This document shows positions 1,866 to 22,246 of a stretch of DNA of 22,246 nucleotides, in pieces; position 1 is the stretch's first letter, and every line of letters begins with the position of its first letter. This DNA is from a virus. The DNA lies in the IMG/VR virus record IMGVR_UViG_3300021378_000181, positions 1-22,246 of that record, one strand, 5' to 3'. A program made the translations under genes and the position numbers. The notes beneath the pieces were generated by a model. It was given only the letters and a program-made list of their open reading frames with translations, searched no databases and was not told where the DNA came from.

Positions 1866-3014
1866 TTATTCGTTTGCTATATTTGTTATGTTTTCTTCTA
1901 CTGCTGGATCATCTGCATCAGTTCCTATTATCATTGGCACTGGTTCTACTTCTAACTTAACATTATATCCTGCAAGTTTTAGTAAATATCCATAAGTATC
2001 TAATACTTTACTTTGTTTTGGTCTTACGACCGTGTTCATAAAATGAGAATACGAAGTGATTATTTCATCCGAGTTTGATGAGAATCCTGCACCATCTTTG
2101 ATACCGAGGAGTAAGGGAGATGTGATTCGATGAGCAGTAAGGATACGAGAAGTAATCCTAGCCTCGAGAGTAATGTAATAATCATCATTCGCATTCTCTA
2201 TAGGAGTAACTTGTAATTCCTTTCCTGGTTCAGAGAACGCTAAAAAGAATCTACCTGCATTTTCTTCACCACTGAATGTATCATCTATTTCATTATAAAT
2301 ATCTCTACGTTCTTCTGGTGAAGGAATTCCATTTCTAAACTGTACAAACATAGACGGTGCTAAACCATTTGAAATGTTTGCATTATGGAATCTACTTACA
2401 CGAGCATCAAGTTGTATATCATTAACACCACCAATATATGCAGGCAGTGGATAAACATCGTTACCAGGTGTATAGTTCATACAATAATAAATTTGACTTG
2501 CATTGTCTTTTTTATTATCTGTAACATTAAAAGCTTTATACTCTACTGCTTTATGTTTTCTTAGCTTTTCCCAATCAGAGCAATACCAATAAGATTCTAC
2601 TCTATCTTCATCATTAGGTTTACCACTTCTTACATTAGCAAAAGGTATATGATAAATTTCTGCGATTCTTGTTCCTTCTTTATTCCAAATAACATTTACA
2701 GAATATCCACCGTATAGTGTATAATCTAATGCAATTTTAGAAAAGATGTCGTTAATTGTTTCTCCATCGGTATTGATATAATCTACACCATACTCTTTTA
2801 TACCTTCTCCGTATATGCCGTCTTTAATTGCATCTATACATGTATGATTCATTGCTGAGGTATCATATAATTCAATAAGTGTTTGTGGAAATAGGTTATC
2901 TAATCCAAACTTAATGTAATCCTTTCCTCTTTGTTCTTGGATAATTGGTAAATCAATAGCTTCAAACTTTGAGCCTTTAATTGAATATAATCCTTCTGGG
3001 TTTGTGTTTCTCAT
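1866..3014 (-). CDS. Portal protein
   Basis: The 382-residue protein has features of Bacteroidota phage portals. The N-terminal region includes NLFPQTLIELYDTSAMNHTC and IDAIKDGIYGEG. A central stretch reads YTLYGGYSVNVIW. The C-terminal clip/stem region reads GFSSNSDEIITSYSHFM and NTVVRPKQSKVLD. The dodecameric portal is the DNA channel of the capsid and docks the terminase. It is shorter than many portals (400-500 residues). It lies 8 nt after the small beta-rich gene and 1 nt before the connector. Unusually, it is far from the terminase and is transcribed after the capsid gene instead of before it. Confidence 0.78.
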   Translation of the reverse strand: MRNTNPEGLYSIKGSKFEAIDLPIIQEQRGKDYIKFGLDNLFPQTLIELYDTSAMNHTCIDAIKDGIYGEGIKEYGVDYINTDGETINDIFSKIALDYTLYGGYSVNVIWNKEGTRIAEIYHIPFANVRSGKPNDEDRVESYWYCSDWEKLRKHKAVEYKAFNVTDNKKDNASQIYYCMNYTPGNDVYPLPAYIGGVNDIQLDARVSRFHNANISNGLAPSMFVQFRNGIPSPEERRDIYNEIDDTFSGEENAGRFFLAFSEPGKELQVTPIENANDDYYITLEARITSRILTAHRITSPLLLGIKDGAGFSSNSDEIITSYSHFMNTVVRPKQSKVLDTYGYLLKLAGYNVKLEVEPVPMIIGTDADDPAVEENITNIANE

Positions 3015-3444: not shown

Positions 3445-3936
3445 ATGGAAAAAAAGATAAAGTTTGGTGAATTTGAGTGCAATGTCACTACAAAGCTCTA
3501 CGGATTAGATGATCCAATTGTAAAATTTGTAATAGGAAAAATGGGATCCTTAGATTGGACTGATTATAAATTGTATGTACATGGAAGCATTTTAAATGAC
3601 TCTCCTGCTAATGATATAGATTTTACTATTACAGGTCCACAAGATCCTACACGAGTTAACGACTTGCTTAGAGACTGTGTTAGATGTGGTTATGAAACTA
3701 ATGTACAAGTTGATATTAAGTTCTTGTTAAGTGGTGAACTATTTGACTTTCCTTCTCATACACCTGGTGATAAGCACTCATGTATGTATGCTCACTATGC
3801 TCCTTCAATAACCGTTGATGGAACTACCTATGATTATGCGCAAAGATTTAGTGGCTATTGGATCACCCAAAAAACATGGCCTAGTGCAAAATCTTATCTA
3901 TCTCCACAATCTCCAGTCTTAATTGAATGGCACTAA
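3445..3936 (+). CDS. Minimal nucleotidyltransferase-fold protein, lone plus-strand gene
   Basis: The 163-residue protein shows the signature of the DNA polymerase beta-like nucleotidyltransferase fold. G47-S48 is followed by the metal-binding pair D57 and D59 (VHGSILNDSPANDIDFTI), and the third acidic residue is probably D90 (VQVDIKFLL). Members transfer NMP groups to proteins, RNA or small molecules; the substrate here is unknown. A His/Cys-containing segment (HTPGDKHSCMYAHY) follows the core. No other gene in the window is on the plus strand. It has a short AT-rich upstream region (CTAATATATATTCT before the ATG) and a hairpin terminator 4 nt after the stop. It therefore looks like a self-contained insertion (moron) in the structural operon. 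Confidence 0.7.
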   Translation: MEKKIKFGEFECNVTTKLYGLDDPIVKFVIGKMGSLDWTDYKLYVHGSILNDSPANDIDFTITGPQDPTRVNDLLRDCVRCGYETNVQVDIKFLLSGELFDFPSHTPGDKHSCMYAHYAPSITVDGTTYDYAQRFSGYWITQKTWPSAKSYLSPQSPVLIEWH

Positions 3937-9688: not shown

Positions 9689-12600
9689 TTAGCAATCTGA
9701 GTTAGTGGCACAGTTTGTACCTAAGTTTGTTATTAGTGCGGTACCAGTTGTAACTGTTACTGTACCTGGATCTGCACATACAGTTGTACTTCCTCCTCTT
9801 AATGCCCATGAGAAACTTGCTCCTCCTCTTTGGTATTGACCTGTTGCTCCACCTGTACCTATAGTAGATATATCATGACATGTACTTTGTGTAACACCTA
9901 AACATGTAGTACAATCAGTATATGAAATTGAAGTATCTATATCACCAAAGGTAGTAGCTCCTGGATTTGCTAGGACAGGTTTTACACATCTGCCTGCAAA
10001 AGATCCGTTTAAGACTTTATATGCTGGTCCGTTTAGTGTTAAAACAATATTGGAGTTAAAGTAATAAGGACTAGTTTGTCCGTCACAGAATACACAGTAA
10101 TATTGGAAGCCTGCAGTTGAACTAGAACATGTAGTACAATCAGTATAAACTTGATCCACATCCCATACACCACCAGTTGCACTCTGCTGAATTATTTCAT
10201 AACAATCAGTGTTACCTGGTTCTTGGATTGTAACTACTTGACCTACAGATAACGATTGTAGTGGAATATTTAAATATCTTACATCTGCTGCATTAGTACA
10301 GTTTTCTATTTCCCAACTAAAGAATGATCCTCCAGTACATTGTGCACAATCTACAGAAAGGAAATCTACTGTGTATGAAGGGTTAAGATTACTTGTACCC
10401 ATAATTTGGTAACATCCTGCTCTTTCGTTTAGTGTTAGAGTTTGTCCTAAAGGTAACTGCGCACCTGCATCAATAATGTATTCTATTGAAGATAAAGAAT
10501 TACAATTATTTAAATGTTCTCTAACTCTATAAACATATTGTGGAGTTTGACAAGAAATAGAAGCAAGAAACGTTTGACTTTGACATCCTAATGAATCTGT
10601 AATAAAAAAGTAATAATCATTTGGACATAAACCAGTTCTACTTAAACCACTACCACCATCTTGCCATGTAATTGTATAAGGTCCTGTGCCACCGCTTGGT
10701 GTAACTGTAACCTCTCCATTACAAGGTGCAGAACAATCTGTTGCATCTGTTTCAGTCCATGTTGCTGTTACAGGAGTTGCTGTACTTGCATTTACTTGAA
10801 TTGTTACTGTTGCTTCTCTACCTACACTATCTGTAACTAAAAGTTGATCAATACCTAGAGGTACATTGCTTATAGTAAAGATATAAGGAGCTGCACCTGC
10901 ATTAGCATTATAAGTTCCAGTTTGTCCACTATTTTGTAATTCCCATGTAAAGTTTGGAGTACCGTTAGTTGTAACTTGAATAGATCCAGGATCACCAGCA
11001 CAATCACCATCACTTACAATAACAGAGAAACCTGTTAGTTGTTCGTCTACCCATACAGGTCGTTTATCTTTATAAGTAATTAGTTGACACTTAACAGTTG
11101 TTCTTTCACCTATTTGAGCATCTATGATTTTTTCAGGTCTATAGTACTTACCGTCAATAAAAATTAAATCATCAAAGGTTAAGTCTTGTAGATCAACATT
11201 ATTTAAAACGAAATAAGCGGTAACCCTTCTGCTAAACTTATTGTAAAGAGAACTAATATATCTACTCCAATACTCGTCAAAAAGCGTAGAGCCTTGATCA
11301 TAGTATCCTGTACCTGGATCTGGGTCAATGTAATATCTTGTATCATTAAAGAAATTTAAATTTAAACTAGTTTGTTGTACAGGCCAATTTTCATAAGGAG
11401 AAACTAAAGGCCATATATCTTGTATTTGTGCAGTACCTGTATCATTATCTAAATACCAATCGTCTTGTGCAACATCAATGTCTTGTTTACCGTTATAGAA
11501 AAGGAATCTTGTATTTGAGACAATTGGTAACCTATCAAAGTTTTCTCCAGTTACTTCTATTATAGTTGGTAATATAAATTGAGGATAAGGATGTGGTGCA
11601 TTAGTTCCATGATTGATTTGATCTATTGGTGTTGGACTAATCCCTAAGACCTCTACATCTCTTGTACCTTTAAGTAATTCATTACCGCTATTGAACCTTA
11701 ACCAACCGTATGCATGCTTTGTATTGTCTTGGTGAAAAGAATTAATTAAATCCTCATCTTCTTGCATTGTATACTCTATCTCTGCACTCTGTGTATTAAA
11801 TAGAGGTTCACTAACAAAGTCTTTTTCTCTTACAAGTTTATCGGACCAATCATATGTAGTTCCACTTCCTATAAAGTCTTGCCAAGGTTCTATGATAAAG
11901 TTATTAGGTCGGTTCTTATCAGGTTGAAGTACTAACCTAAACATTGTAAGTACATCCTTAATAAAATCTATTTGTCTGTAATCACAATTAAAATCTGCAG
12001 GTGCATAGTAATTACCAGGAGCAGCAGTACAGTTCCAAAAAGTATTATCAACCATTGAAAGGTCATAAGTACTAGAAGGAGTAATAAAGACTTGTAAGAT
12101 ATCACCTGCTTGGATTTGGTAACCTCCATTACGAGAATCATAATTAAGTATACTTGTATTCATATTACCAGTAAAATTACCTGTAGCAATTGTCTGTGTA
12201 ATAGTTCCGCCTGGTGTATTAACAACACAAAGCTGAACCGCTGAAGGAACCATCGTAAAAGTATAATCAGAGTTTTCAAACTGAGCATCTACTTGTGCAG
12301 AGATTTCCATTATATAATAGTTACCTGCAATCGTTGCAGTACCTGGTGCAACAAACCATGATCCTGTTCCTGCAGGTTGTACATCAGAAGTACCTACATT
12401 AAAGTATCCTCCAACATTACTTGCAACATTATCATTATACATGTAATTGTTTACATCATTCTCTCCGTTAGTTGGATTAGACGATTCAAAGATACTTGTT
12501 GTAATTTGTCCAATGTCAGCTCCAATCTTTTCTTCGTTACCAAATGCAGAAATATACATTTGATGAAATAAGTCAGAATTTAAAAATGTAGAGTCATAAG

Positions 12601-13339
12601 TATATCCACTATCCTCAAAGATTTGATCCCATACTCGTTTAGCTCTTACCATTGGCTTAAGTCTATCTAAAGATAAAGAATTAGCTGACTGTGTAAATCT
12701 ATCAGAACCTGATAACTTAATCATACCTTGTTCAGGATTGCCTGCATCATCATACGTGTTCCCGTGATCTATTAGTGGAAATAATATATCTCCATCTGCA
12801 TACCCTGCCGTTAAAGAGGCATTCTCAGGATAAGCATCCCAGCTATCTCTTACATCAGCATAAAGAAAAGGACCAACAAAGTCAGCAGCATTAGTATAAG
12901 CAACTGGGTTATCATCCCAATTAAAGTCTGTCATTACCAATTGACATAATGGCTTCTCTCCAACTACAGATGAGAAATCTCTTGTCTCACCAAGGAAAAG
13001 TAATTCATAATCAATTTTGTCTAGGTCTCCGTTTGCATAGATCTTTTGTAACCTAACATGTCCTACACGAAACTCTGCACCATCAACAAGTATCTGTGCT
13101 GGTTTTTTAATTGTAATATCAAAGTCAATACCGTCAATTTCAAATGCATTTTGAAAGAACTCGTTATTATGTCTTGTTGCAGGTACTTTAAAGGTTCTAC
13201 TAAATACAGATGTTGCATCAGCAGTTGTGATATCCTCTACACTTAACGTTAACTTAATTGGTTGAGTTTCGTAAAGATCCAGAAATATTGCATCTGCATC
13301 TGTACTTGCTTCACTTTGATATACTTTTAATTGAATCAT
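9689..13339 (-). CDS. Large tail protein with SprB-type and Cys-rich repeats
   Basis: The 1216-residue protein is the largest in the window. The N-terminal part (about 1-110: MIQLKVYQSEASTDADAIFL, VFSRTFKVPATRHNNEFFQN) reads like a structural tail domain and is followed by a long beta-rich body. Residues about 775-852 and 855-928 are two SprB-like repeats. The second is the clearer: D-C-S-A-P-C-N-G, then VTPSGGTGPYTITWQDGG, then CPNDYYFFITDSLGC. Residues about 930-1150 form Cys-rich modules ending in DCAQC, DCTTC and DCTTC, with the last Cys at 1001, 1071 and 1146. SprB repeats are known from the gliding adhesin of Bacteroidota, so host-surface binding at the tail tip is inferred. The gene begins 1 nt after the preceding stop, which implies coupled translation. 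Confidence 0.75.
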   Translation of the reverse strand: MIQLKVYQSEASTDADAIFLDLYETQPIKLTLSVEDITTADATSVFSRTFKVPATRHNNEFFQNAFEIDGIDFDITIKKPAQILVDGAEFRVGHVRLQKIYANGDLDKIDYELLFLGETRDFSSVVGEKPLCQLVMTDFNWDDNPVAYTNAADFVGPFLYADVRDSWDAYPENASLTAGYADGDILFPLIDHGNTYDDAGNPEQGMIKLSGSDRFTQSANSLSLDRLKPMVRAKRVWDQIFEDSGYTYDSTFLNSDLFHQMYISAFGNEEKIGADIGQITTSIFESSNPTNGENDVNNYMYNDNVASNVGGYFNVGTSDVQPAGTGSWFVAPGTATIAGNYYIMEISAQVDAQFENSDYTFTMVPSAVQLCVVNTPGGTITQTIATGNFTGNMNTSILNYDSRNGGYQIQAGDILQVFITPSSTYDLSMVDNTFWNCTAAPGNYYAPADFNCDYRQIDFIKDVLTMFRLVLQPDKNRPNNFIIEPWQDFIGSGTTYDWSDKLVREKDFVSEPLFNTQSAEIEYTMQEDEDLINSFHQDNTKHAYGWLRFNSGNELLKGTRDVEVLGISPTPIDQINHGTNAPHPYPQFILPTIIEVTGENFDRLPIVSNTRFLFYNGKQDIDVAQDDWYLDNDTGTAQIQDIWPLVSPYENWPVQQTSLNLNFFNDTRYYIDPDPGTGYYDQGSTLFDEYWSRYISSLYNKFSRRVTAYFVLNNVDLQDLTFDDLIFIDGKYYRPEKIIDAQIGERTTVKCQLITYKDKRPVWVDEQLTGFSVIVSDGDCAGDPGSIQVTTNGTPNFTWELQNSGQTGTYNANAGAAPYIFTISNVPLGIDQLLVTDSVGREATVTIQVNASTATPVTATWTETDATDCSAPCNGEVTVTPSGGTGPYTITWQDGGSGLSRTGLCPNDYYFFITDSLGCQSQTFLASISCQTPQYVYRVREHLNNCNSLSSIEYIIDAGAQLPLGQTLTLNERAGCYQIMGTSNLNPSYTVDFLSVDCAQCTGGSFFSWEIENCTNAADVRYLNIPLQSLSVGQVVTIQEPGNTDCYEIIQQSATGGVWDVDQVYTDCTTCSSSTAGFQYYCVFCDGQTSPYYFNSNIVLTLNGPAYKVLNGSFAGRCVKPVLANPGATTFGDIDTSISYTDCTTCLGVTQSTCHDISTIGTGGATGQYQRGGASFSWALRGGSTTVCADPGTVTVTTGTALITNLGTNCATNSDC
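9901..10354 (-). repeat. Cys-rich module repeats inside the large tail gene
   Basis: A 22-base string at 9901-9922 recurs identically at 10126-10147, coding the end of the YTDCTTC motif, 225 nt (75 codons) apart. A diverged copy ends near 10337-10354 (VDCAQC), 70 codons further upstream in the protein. The pattern suggests recent module duplication. Confidence 0.7.
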
Positions 13340-16200: not shown

Positions 16201-16852
16201 ATTGTCTTTGTTGTTTTTGCTTACGCAAGTTTTCTTCTACTACCTTTTCTTTTTGTAGTGCCATAAAGTTTAGAGCTTTCTTTAACGGCTGCTCGGTTAC
16301 TTTATCTATGTTAAGTATATCTTCTTTAGCAATCTGTACTATTATAGTGTACCACGATTTAGCTATCTGAGTCTTTTTAATCTCATCTGGTTCAGCATCA
16401 AATATATCGTGATCAGTTAATCCAAATAAGATTTTGTACTGCCTATAAGTGTATGTTCTAAAAGCTACATATTTTTCTATTGCCCACATAACCTCATCAG
16501 AGAACTTAGCCTTAGGACAGAGTATCTTTGCTATATCTTTGAAGTGTTTATCAATTCCTATTGTTAAGTAAACATCCAAGTCTATAAATTGACCAAATGT
16601 AATCTCATCTAGGTTTAAGATCTCTACTTCTTTACGTTCATTCATAGCCTTAACAGCAAACACGATCCCTAAAGTTAGAGACTGTGGTTCTGCTTTGGCA
16701 ATTAAGGATAATGGCGCATTGACCAATTGTGACACTATCATTGGATAATACTTTGGATCCTCCCAGTCAAAATTTAACAGACTATTGTAGTGGTCTATTG
16801 TTAGTCGCTGAGGGATCGCATAACTCTTTCCATTAATATTGATCTTTACCAT
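16175..16852 (-). CDS. Putative tail assembly chaperone
   Basis: The 225-residue, mainly helical protein begins with a short beta segment (MVKININGKSYAIPQRLTID) followed by helices such as LDEITFGQFIDLDVYLTIG and KHFKDIAKILCP. The C-terminus is highly charged (RKQKQQRQYDVQRNRR). A beta-ribbon start and a helical body resemble chaperones that act on tape-measure or baseplate proteins. No slippery frameshift site was seen. It opens the tail block with its own promoter-like motif exactly 8 nt before the ATG. I am not sure of the family; another virion assembly factor is possible. Confidence 0.4.
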   Translation of the reverse strand: MVKININGKSYAIPQRLTIDHYNSLLNFDWEDPKYYPMIVSQLVNAPLSLIAKAEPQSLTLGIVFAVKAMNERKEVEILNLDEITFGQFIDLDVYLTIGIDKHFKDIAKILCPKAKFSDEVMWAIEKYVAFRTYTYRQYKILFGLTDHDIFDAEPDEIKKTQIAKSWYTIIVQIAKEDILNIDKVTEQPLKKALNFMALQKEKVVEENLRKQKQQRQYDVQRNRR

Positions 16853-21181: not shown

Positions 21182-21204
21182 AAAAAAAGGTAAACTTAGT
21201 TACC
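21182..21204 (-). terminator. Intrinsic terminator of the candidate ncRNA
   Basis: On the minus strand GGTAA (21204-21200) pairs with TTACC (21193-21189) around a short loop and is followed by seven U (21188-21182). The stem is short (5 bp), but it sits at the end of the structured region. Confidence 0.5.
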
Positions 21205-21508
21205 AAGTGAAAACTCTCAGTACTGATAGTGTACTAGTATCCCCTATAGAATTTTTATCTTCTATGACAATATGTTACCATATCGCGATATTAACCTAGA
21301 ACTTCGTTACTGCCGTTCGTTAATTTTATTTCTAAAATCTACACCTACATTGGATCCCCTATTAGTTTCCAACCCAGTAACTTATATCTTAGGCAATTTT
21401 TAACGCTATCGGGGACATTCAGTTGAATTAACCTAAACCCGACTTCTAATCTGCTGTAATCTTTCGATCCTTTCTAGCTTTGACAGATGAACCTTGCTTG
21501 ACGGTACG
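21182..21508 (-). ncRNA. Candidate structured noncoding RNA (about 325 nt)
   Basis: No credible ORF occupies this stretch, but the minus strand folds into many local hairpins. These are a stem AUCUG/CAGAU (21488-21449) enclosing GAUC-GAAA-GAUU (21469-21458); GUCGGG/CCCGAU (21443-21408) enclosing AUUC-AACU-GAAU; AUUUUA-GAAA-UAAAAU (21338-21323); an 8-bp stem closed by GUAA (21286-21267); and AUAGAA/UUCUAU (21265-21246). Several have GNRA tetraloops. The motifs TAGGTTAAT and ATAGGGGAT alternate twice, suggesting a two-part architecture. An AT-rich promoter-like box precedes it and a terminator hairpin ends it. I do not recognise tmRNA, RNase P, 6S or tRNA features. A packaging signal or origin is the alternative. 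Confidence 0.5.
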
Positions 21509-21510
21509 TT

Positions 21511-21530
21511 GTTTATTATATATACTTTTT
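21511..21530 (-). promoter_or_regulatory. Promoter-like box before the candidate ncRNA
   Basis: Minus-strand AAAAAGTATATATAATAAAC resembles the AAGTATATTT core of the phage motif and also contains TATAAT. It lies just downstream of the fibre terminator and just upstream of the structured region. Confidence 0.4.
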
Positions 21531-21693: not shown

Positions 21694-22246
21694 TTAAGCT
21701 ATTCTAATCTTAACTGCACCACTTGTATGATACACACCACCTAAAGGTATTCCTCCAGCTGCTGCCGCTGTATCATCTGCATAATCAATGTTAGCATAAT
21801 CTGCAATTTGTAATAAGTTTACAGTTGTTGTATCAGCTGTACTAGCAGTAACTCCTTCTCCTAATGCTACTGAGTTGTTTGCTGATGCAGATGAATCTTT
21901 ACCTATTGCAACTGAACCTATACCTAGAGCAGAAGATGTATTACCCATTGCAATTGAGTCTTGTGCAGTTACAGTTGTAGAGTATGTACTAGTTCCTATA
22001 AAGATACTATTAGAAGCAGTACCTGGAGTTAATCCACGAACTCCAATATTAATACTGTTTGCACCTTGTGCTATAGCATTTTCACCTATAGCTACTGATT
22101 CTGATCCAAAAGCTTTAGCATCTCGTCCATACGCTGCACCATTACTAGCCGATGCTTCAGCGTTAACTCCTACACCTACACCAAAGGATGCACTTGCAAT
22201 TGCTCCAAAACCTATTGCAATTCCATATTGCCCAGCTGCTGTTGCT
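21694..22246 (-). CDS. YadA-like phage fibre, C-terminal part (continues across the end join)
   Basis: The stop is at 21694 and the frame is open to the right window edge. Bases 21966-22246 repeat 1-281 in the same frame, so this is most simply the C-terminal portion of the gene that starts at 553. Further YadA-head repeats appear (SSALGIGSVAIGKDSSASAN, NSVALGEGVTAS). A C-terminal cap follows: ANIDYADDTAAAAGG and IPLGGVYHTSGAVKIRIA. This ending is of a kind I associate with marine phage fibres and probably serves trimerisation or tip formation. A terminator lies 108 nt downstream. One residue differs between the two copies of the repeat: Ala here, Ser in the left copy, within a repeat unit. 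Confidence 0.75.
   Translation of the reverse strand, partial: ATAAGQYGIAIGFGAIASASFGVGVGVNAEASASNGAAYGRDAKAFGSESVAIGENAIAQGANSINIGVRGLTPGTASNSIFIGTSTYSTTVTAQDSIAMGNTSSALGIGSVAIGKDSSASANNSVALGEGVTASTADTTTVNLLQIADYANIDYADDTAAAAGGIPLGGVYHTSGAVKIRIA
21966..22246. repeat. Terminal direct repeat, right copy (matches 1-281)
   Basis: Identical to 1-281 apart from 22092 (c for a) and 22150 (c for t). Removing one copy leaves a 21,965-bp map with an intact fibre frame. Confidence 0.9.

Follow-up and report, generated by a model that had tools for sequence, protein, structure and literature searches.

The stretch of DNA analyzed here (the window) comprises 22,246 nucleotides of IMG/VR record IMGVR_UViG_3300021378_000181, a phage contig that carries genes for the terminase, portal, and tape-measure proteins. 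On its minus strand, a tail-fibre gene (21694-22245), which has a strong terminator of its own (21586-21557), is followed by the next gene only at about 21040. No open reading frames of at least 60 amino acids were found in 21182-21530, in agreement with the preliminary description of this interval as gene-free. The RNA described below is about 330 nt long and is encoded on the minus strand of 21182-21522, where it reads from about 21510 to 21182. The promoter-like box mentioned in the same description is indeed present as TATATAAT at positions 21522-21515 of the minus strand. The proposed terminator corresponds to a terminator-like hairpin with seven T residues at 21204-21182, but its stem consists of only 5 pairs, 2 of which are G-C. 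The elements of the locus are as follows:

21515..21522, minus strand: promoter-like TATATAAT box, ~75 nt upstream of AGAAG
about 21490-21505, minus strand: weak hairpin P0, before P1
21449..21488, minus strand: helix P1 (ATCTGT/GCAGAT) with an inner GAAA hairpin, from stem counts and folds
21438..21447, minus strand: AGAAGUCGGG, a conserved element plus the 5' arm of P2, present in 17 of 17 members retrieved by a pattern lacking AGAAGUCGGG
21408..21443, minus strand: helices P2 (GUCGGG/CCCGAU) and P2a (GGUU/AACU); P2 is 100% paired in the 70-sequence analysis
21394..21399, minus strand: AAAUUG, conserved and unpaired
21295..21393, minus strand: long-range helices P3a (CCUAAGA/UCUAGG) and P3b (GUUACUG/CAGUAAC), enclosing P4 and P5
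21349..21373, minus strand: hairpin P4 (UUGG...CCAA) with one GGGG in its loop; 6 of 6 pairs double-changed
21318..21343, minus strand: optional hairpin P5 with a GAAA tetraloop, from compensatory changes
21267..21286, minus strand: optional hairpin P6 with a GUAA tetraloop, from stem variants in homologues
21246..21265, minus strand: optional hairpin P7, from the predicted fold
21241..21244, minus strand: 3' GGGG motif, complementary to the CCCC of P2
21182..21204, minus strand: terminator-like hairpin GGUAACUAAGUUUACC followed by U7, common to L002, L037, and L023

The hairpins with GAAA and GUAA tetraloops that had been noticed in the window are present, and their stems covary in homologues, but when folded on its own the sequence is not unusually stable (z = -0.70, with 22 of 100 shuffles equally stable), so that the hairpins by themselves are no proof of a structured RNA. 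For the opposite strand, too, the fold is no more stable than those of shuffled sequences (z = 0.32). The two alternating 9-base motifs, TAGGTTAAT and ATAGGGGAT, do occur on the minus strand in four copies and in the order described. However, they are neither in excess over chance (2 repeats observed against a shuffle mean of 0.59, a value reached in 16.7% of 1000 shuffles) nor conserved, as L002, a close homologue, has neither the first TAGGTTAAT nor either copy of ATAGGGGAT; these repeats were therefore rejected as a meaningful feature. Elsewhere in the window, its two ends (1-281 and 21966-22246) are 99.3% identical over 281 bases, which indicates a circular or terminally redundant record whose repeat, in the tail-fibre gene, is slightly variable. 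A plus-strand gene at 3445-3936, located within the minus-strand structural block, codes for a weakly nucleotidyltransferase-like product (E = 0.0045).

The family, whose existence is virtually certain, was expanded from a starting set of five sequences with covariance models and DNA patterns and comprises 90 IMG/VR records (the window included) and the crAss phage cr118_1. The first four homologues (L023, L037, L002, and L005) came from the IMG/VR terminase relatives and two short patterns and are 75 to 98% identical over the matched parts; a distant homologue was detected in a noncoding gap of cr118_1 by blastn against named phages. A covariance model of the core (R1), used alongside a pattern derived from the most conserved segment of that core, retrieved 17 further records. 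Another model, R2, built from 18 sequences, recognizes with E < 0.01 all 67 new records obtained with a P2-only pattern, none of which had entered the model; the held-out member L102 scores 71 bits, and none of the 37 non-member loci used as a control exceeds 18 bits. Alignment A8 contains 72 records that form 64 clusters at 90% identity. Left out of it were 14 of the 67 new records, namely, L152, in which the contig end cuts the RNA, and 13 near-duplicates recognized by eye, as well as the further duplicates L032, L096, L100, L103, and L106. Hand-picked representatives of the 72 records served for the counts of strand bias (41), terminators (60), the 3' motif (54), and P1 (61). The model guided the fitting of alignments A5 to A8, whose pair counts therefore lean towards it.

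The RNA was found in a single confident copy per record in all 17 records tested, second matches (19.5 bits in two of these records and 12.4 bits in one) being judged to be due to chance. Weak extra matches in A7 and A5 (L138:1248, L091:8162, L096:9359, and L108) were taken as chance, too, and the one at L137:12810 (26.3 bits, E = 0.005) may also be fortuitous and is provisionally treated in this way. The first 15-base patterns used on IMG/VR gave mostly chance matches, and another pattern scan returned known records only.

Records carrying the RNA range in length from 5 to 165 kb and encode different terminases, with best matches to PHROG 2 in the window and to PHROG 38 in L092. Outside IMG/VR, a blastn search of INPHARED with seven member RNAs found cr118_1 alone, apart from short matches judged to be unrelated, and two strict patterns found no matches in the 84,980 prokaryote genomes of GTDB. 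In IMG/VR, a slightly relaxed form of the second of these patterns picked up one other contig besides 22 records of the family; given that many true members lack AAATTG, the absence from GTDB holds for the two strict patterns only. The RNA is also absent from closer relatives of the window phage that have ~72% identical terminases, which shows that it is dispensable, and from six other crAss genomes that carry the chaperonin gene; the best match in a crAss relative (cr10_1; E = 0.088), overlapping with a Hatchet ribozyme, was discounted. At the same site, the RNA-less relatives L012, L014, L015, L016, L020, L021, and L011 have a different conserved element after the tail-fibre gene, with tandem ~20-base copies similar to ATAACCTATTGATTTCCAAT and G+C-rich hairpins, and in L007, a relative that also lacks the RNA, a TATATAAT box is followed by two consecutive strong terminator-like hairpins (1784-2186).

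Covariation was analyzed on 5, 21, 55, and 70 distinct sequences. With five sequences, compensatory changes were seen in 17 of the 37 core pairs, and 96.2% of the cells were paired, compared to 81.4% in shuffles; this signal was lost when one arm was slid by a single base. Among sequences outside model building, 95.6% of the cells pair (64.2% in shuffles), 22 of the 25 pairs show double changes, and the covariation score was reached by none of 500 shuffles. Covariation is very strong in helices P1, P3a, P3b, and P4. All 13 pairs of P3a and P3b have double changes, and the same pairs make up the 13 strongest couplings in a model-free analysis of column coupling in the 72-row alignment, so that all of the top thirteen are model pairs; pair 148-520, which extends P3a, ranks two places after them. 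In the 70-sequence analysis, the count of double-changed pairs (19, compared to a mean of 18.8 in shuffles) is saturated and carries no information, in contrast to the other measures. The letters of P2 were largely set by the search patterns, so its invariance reflects ascertainment, and little covariation test is possible for this helix. The preliminary description had proposed a new structured RNA and had named a lack of covariation in homologues as grounds for giving up this proposal; the covariation is strong and, together with the absence of Rfam matches (see below), bears the proposal out.

Members of the family are about 120 to 330 nt long, except for a longer one that bears an insertion, and share a common order of elements. 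The 5' part consists of the promoter, P0, P1, AGAAGU, P2 (GUYGGG...CCCGAU) with a variable inner hairpin, and AAAUUG; the middle part consists of P3a, UAUAAG, P3b, optional P4 and P5, and the return strands, with GAARU between them and GUUAAA after them; the 3' part includes optional P6 and P7, A-GGG(G), 5 to 8 variable bases, and a UAUGUC/UAUCC-like end. The TATATAAT box is also found 72 to 76 nt upstream in L002, L005, and L037. In 17 of the 72 rows, TAnnTTTG, which we take to be the Bacteroidetes-type promoter consensus, is found 55 to 84 nt before AGAAG, the place that is occupied by the TATATAAT box in the window lineage. P1 lies outside the model; a stem of at least 5 pairs directly precedes AGAAG in 59 of 61 representatives, compared to 29.2 expected, and its 3' arms come in 27 distinct versions. 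UGUCCCCGAUAG is located at the 3' side of P2, and P2a has one covarying pair. P4 is missing or reduced in the short members. Among close homologues, P5 keeps its GAAA loop and P6 has either GUAA or GUGA, with stems that change on both sides; for P6, the stems include AUAUG/CAUAU, AAUAAG/CUUAUU, and AAUAUA/UAUAUU.

In the 110 nt that follow the core, GGGG occurs in 52 of 71 rows, against 5.5 expected, and GGG occurs in 69 of 71. The base before GGG(G) is A in 96% of the 54 representatives, an analysis in which the motif was placed by hand in six rows and L090 was read at the wrong GGG. In many members the motif lies within a few tens of nucleotides of the first ATG. The GGGG is complementary to the CCCC that is also used in P2, which implies two mutually exclusive folds. 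As the CCCC was fixed by the search pattern, we infer the CCCC/GGGG pairing from complementarity only.

The preliminary description had recognized no known class in this RNA. The family is indeed previously uncatalogued: in comparisons with the 4227 families of Rfam 15, run at gathering-score thresholds and with relaxed settings, no tested member matched any family. At the gathering thresholds, the window had no matches and 27 member loci had matches only to tRNA and tmRNA, none of them at the RNA positions. Relaxed searches, made with the regions of the window and of cr118_1 and, to E = 1, with six member loci, gave no match at the strand and place of the RNA. Of the weak matches to the window region, which included the L20 leader and Ref55, most lie on the upstream terminator, and FTX_1 (E = 4.3), which touches the 3' end of the RNA, is far below its cut-off. 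ARAGORN detected no tRNA or tmRNA in the window; those found in other members adjoin the RNA and do not overlap it. Same-strand tRNA arrays within 4 kb of the RNA are located at 1409-4308 in L153 (18 tRNAs), 52-1473 in L130 (7 tRNAs), and 225-1764 in L177 (9 tRNAs). Group I intron, group II intron, and tmRNA identities were considered but rejected. In L094, which carries the RNA, a separate type-P1 twister-like match (2637-2700, plus strand; 48.7 bits, E = 6e-8) is below the gathering score. No description of the RNA was found in the literature covered, which included PMC8040213 and PMC12286853 and to which subscription journals and preprints contributed little.

The RNA is intergenic, and the genes around it show a pronounced strand bias. 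In 41 representatives, with ORFs called mechanically, coding bases in the 5 kb downstream amount to 133,820 on the same strand and 16,521 on the opposite one (89% same), compared to 18,017 and 61,174 upstream (23% same). In 62 of 68 cases, the first ORF downstream is on the RNA strand, often less than 130 nt from the core; the nearest upstream ORF is on this strand in 29 of 65. In cr118_1, the position of the RNA (66,648-66,800) coincides exactly with the strand switch, after which an unbroken plus-strand block extends from 66,927 to 92,260 and includes the chaperonin, terminase, portal, and capsid genes; in the window, it heads the minus-strand block with the terminase, portal, tape-measure, and tail-fibre genes. 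Other members are followed by genes for terminase, holin, endolysin-like, or UvsX-like proteins, by unassigned genes, or by tRNA arrays. The RNA thus very likely stands as a leader in front of a long operon, as is typical of the put and EAR elements, and, being usually found at the start of a long gene block, probably helps control the switching-on of phage genes. The crAss member and the promoter boxes indicate that the host phylum is most likely Bacteroidota; Crassvirales infect Bacteroidetes, according to PMC10136315.

This observed fold, family, and position can be accommodated by a model in which the RNA serves as the 5' leader of a long co-directional block, often a late or structural operon, and folds while the polymerase leaves the promoter. 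Its UCCCC would have two alternative partners, GUYGGG, with which it forms P2, and the 3' GGGG next to the first start codon; which of the two it pairs with would set the expression of the operon. That the family acts as a cis leader through such alternative pairing has about an even chance of being correct; cis-acting control of the operon in whatever way is somewhat more probable. As for the output, the first guess would be RNA-based processive antitermination, since the downstream genes vary by lineage, as would fit an RNA polymerase-modifying element, and the second would be translation control of the first gene. Antitermination as the precise mechanism is a tentative suggestion. Terminators behind the RNA, counted family-wide, were found in 6 of 60 representatives against 3.2 expected, although a terminator-like hairpin does follow in the window, L002, and L037; a general terminator to be read through was not found, which counts to some extent against an antitermination leader; likewise, the members that precede tRNA arrays or lysis genes and not structural genes speak against a leader dedicated to late operons.

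The best-surviving alternative, possible but clearly less probable than control in cis, is a stand-alone phage RNA of the GOLLD and ROOL type, acting in trans, transcribed from a promoter of its own, and merely sited at operon heads. An RNA in its own transcription unit, as originally envisaged, is plausible in the window lineage only, where the RNA has its own TATATAAT box, a terminator-like hairpin separates the RNA from the next gene (in the window, L002, and L037) and a second TATATAAT box precedes that gene. The diversity of the downstream genes, the tRNA arrays near the RNA in L130, L153, and L177, and the GNRA loops, which suggest tertiary folding, would fit such an RNA as well. However, a following terminator is absent from most members; outside the window lineage, this argues against a small discrete transcript, and family-wide the RNA looks like a 5' leader. 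The strong strand asymmetry and the 3' motif, which in several lineages extends as far as the next gene's start codon, also favor a leader.

A riboswitch-like leader that senses a metabolite or another signal and controls translation or attenuation of the first gene is improbable. The mutually exclusive GUYGGG/CCCC and CCCC/GGGG pairings, the long conserved unpaired stretches (AGAAGU, AAAUUG, UAUAAG, GAAAU, and GUUAAA), and the close spacing of GGG(G) and ATG in some members could all be expected of such a regulator. However, riboswitches follow a gene function, and the 68 proteins encoded nearest downstream belong to 41 families. This diversity speaks against a gene-specific riboswitch and in favor of an action on RNA polymerase, on mRNA in general, or in trans; nor was there any match to an Rfam riboswitch. 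It is still harder to credit a ribozyme or an intron-like element (group I, group II, or self-cleaving), to which the long-range helices, GNRA loops, and conserved unpaired core might point, along with a GIY-YIG gene nearby in the window and a similar-looking protein that adjoins the RNA in L102. The RNA is intergenic, with no interrupted gene seen, the group I, group II, and ribozyme models gave no match at relaxed thresholds, and P2 lacks a G-U pair at the would-be splice site. A DNA-level element (a packaging site or an origin) or chance conservation can be practically discounted despite the terminase genes nearby in some phages, because compensatory base-pair changes are explained by an RNA and not by a DNA site.

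A cis-acting leader invites comparison with the RNA antiterminators put of phage HK022 and EAR of Bacillus, the latter of which is in Rfam. These are structured leaders that head long operons and act in cis whatever the downstream gene; the present RNA is larger, has another architecture, and matches no model, and antitermination is something that we only infer here. GOLLD and ROOL, RNAs of 600 nt or more that form self-assembling cages, are likewise structured phage or prophage RNAs with no known function, and some of their members have tRNA islands nearby. The present RNA is far shorter (about 330 nt in the window), gave no covariance-model match, is located at operon heads and not mainly in tRNA islands, and was not found in the bacterial genomes scanned with the two strict patterns. 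PMC12286853 reports tRNA arrays near both GOLLD and ROOL. RAGATH RNAs and Hatchet ribozymes are found in the same kind of phages (crAss) but belong to other families, none of which the present RNA matches, and it is absent from six other crAss genomes. In crAss phages, RAGATH-9 RNAs and Hatchet ribozymes are located in the vicinity of the annotated tmRNA genes, with sites at 12848-13027, 16640-16763, and 14449-14587 in L079, which has two Hatchets, and at 11475-11653 and 12506-12632 in L081. All six crAss genomes examined also contain, in the same place a few kilobases from the gene for a phage sigma factor, ~2 kb without annotated genes (L079, 5789-7995; L080, 3286-5367; L081, 2485-4562; L082, 1418-3444; L083, 5105-7620; and L084, 4749-6859).

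The analysis thus adds a well-supported RNA family common to phages with unrelated terminases and different genome sizes, a distribution that implies a common, strongly selected task in the phages of Bacteroidota, a host group in which phage gene regulation is poorly known. Its covariance model makes the family searchable. A far-reaching and rather doubtful version of the cis-acting leader would have unrelated Bacteroidota phages, as different as a 22 kb contig and a Crassvirales genome, share an RNA master switch of their late operons, with the leader unaided reprogramming either the host RNA polymerase, by antitermination, or the ribosome through the CCCC/GGGG change. If the RNA does drive late operons, it would offer a first handle on the timing of structural genes, including those of crAss-like phages, and a new gene-control part for gut bacteria.
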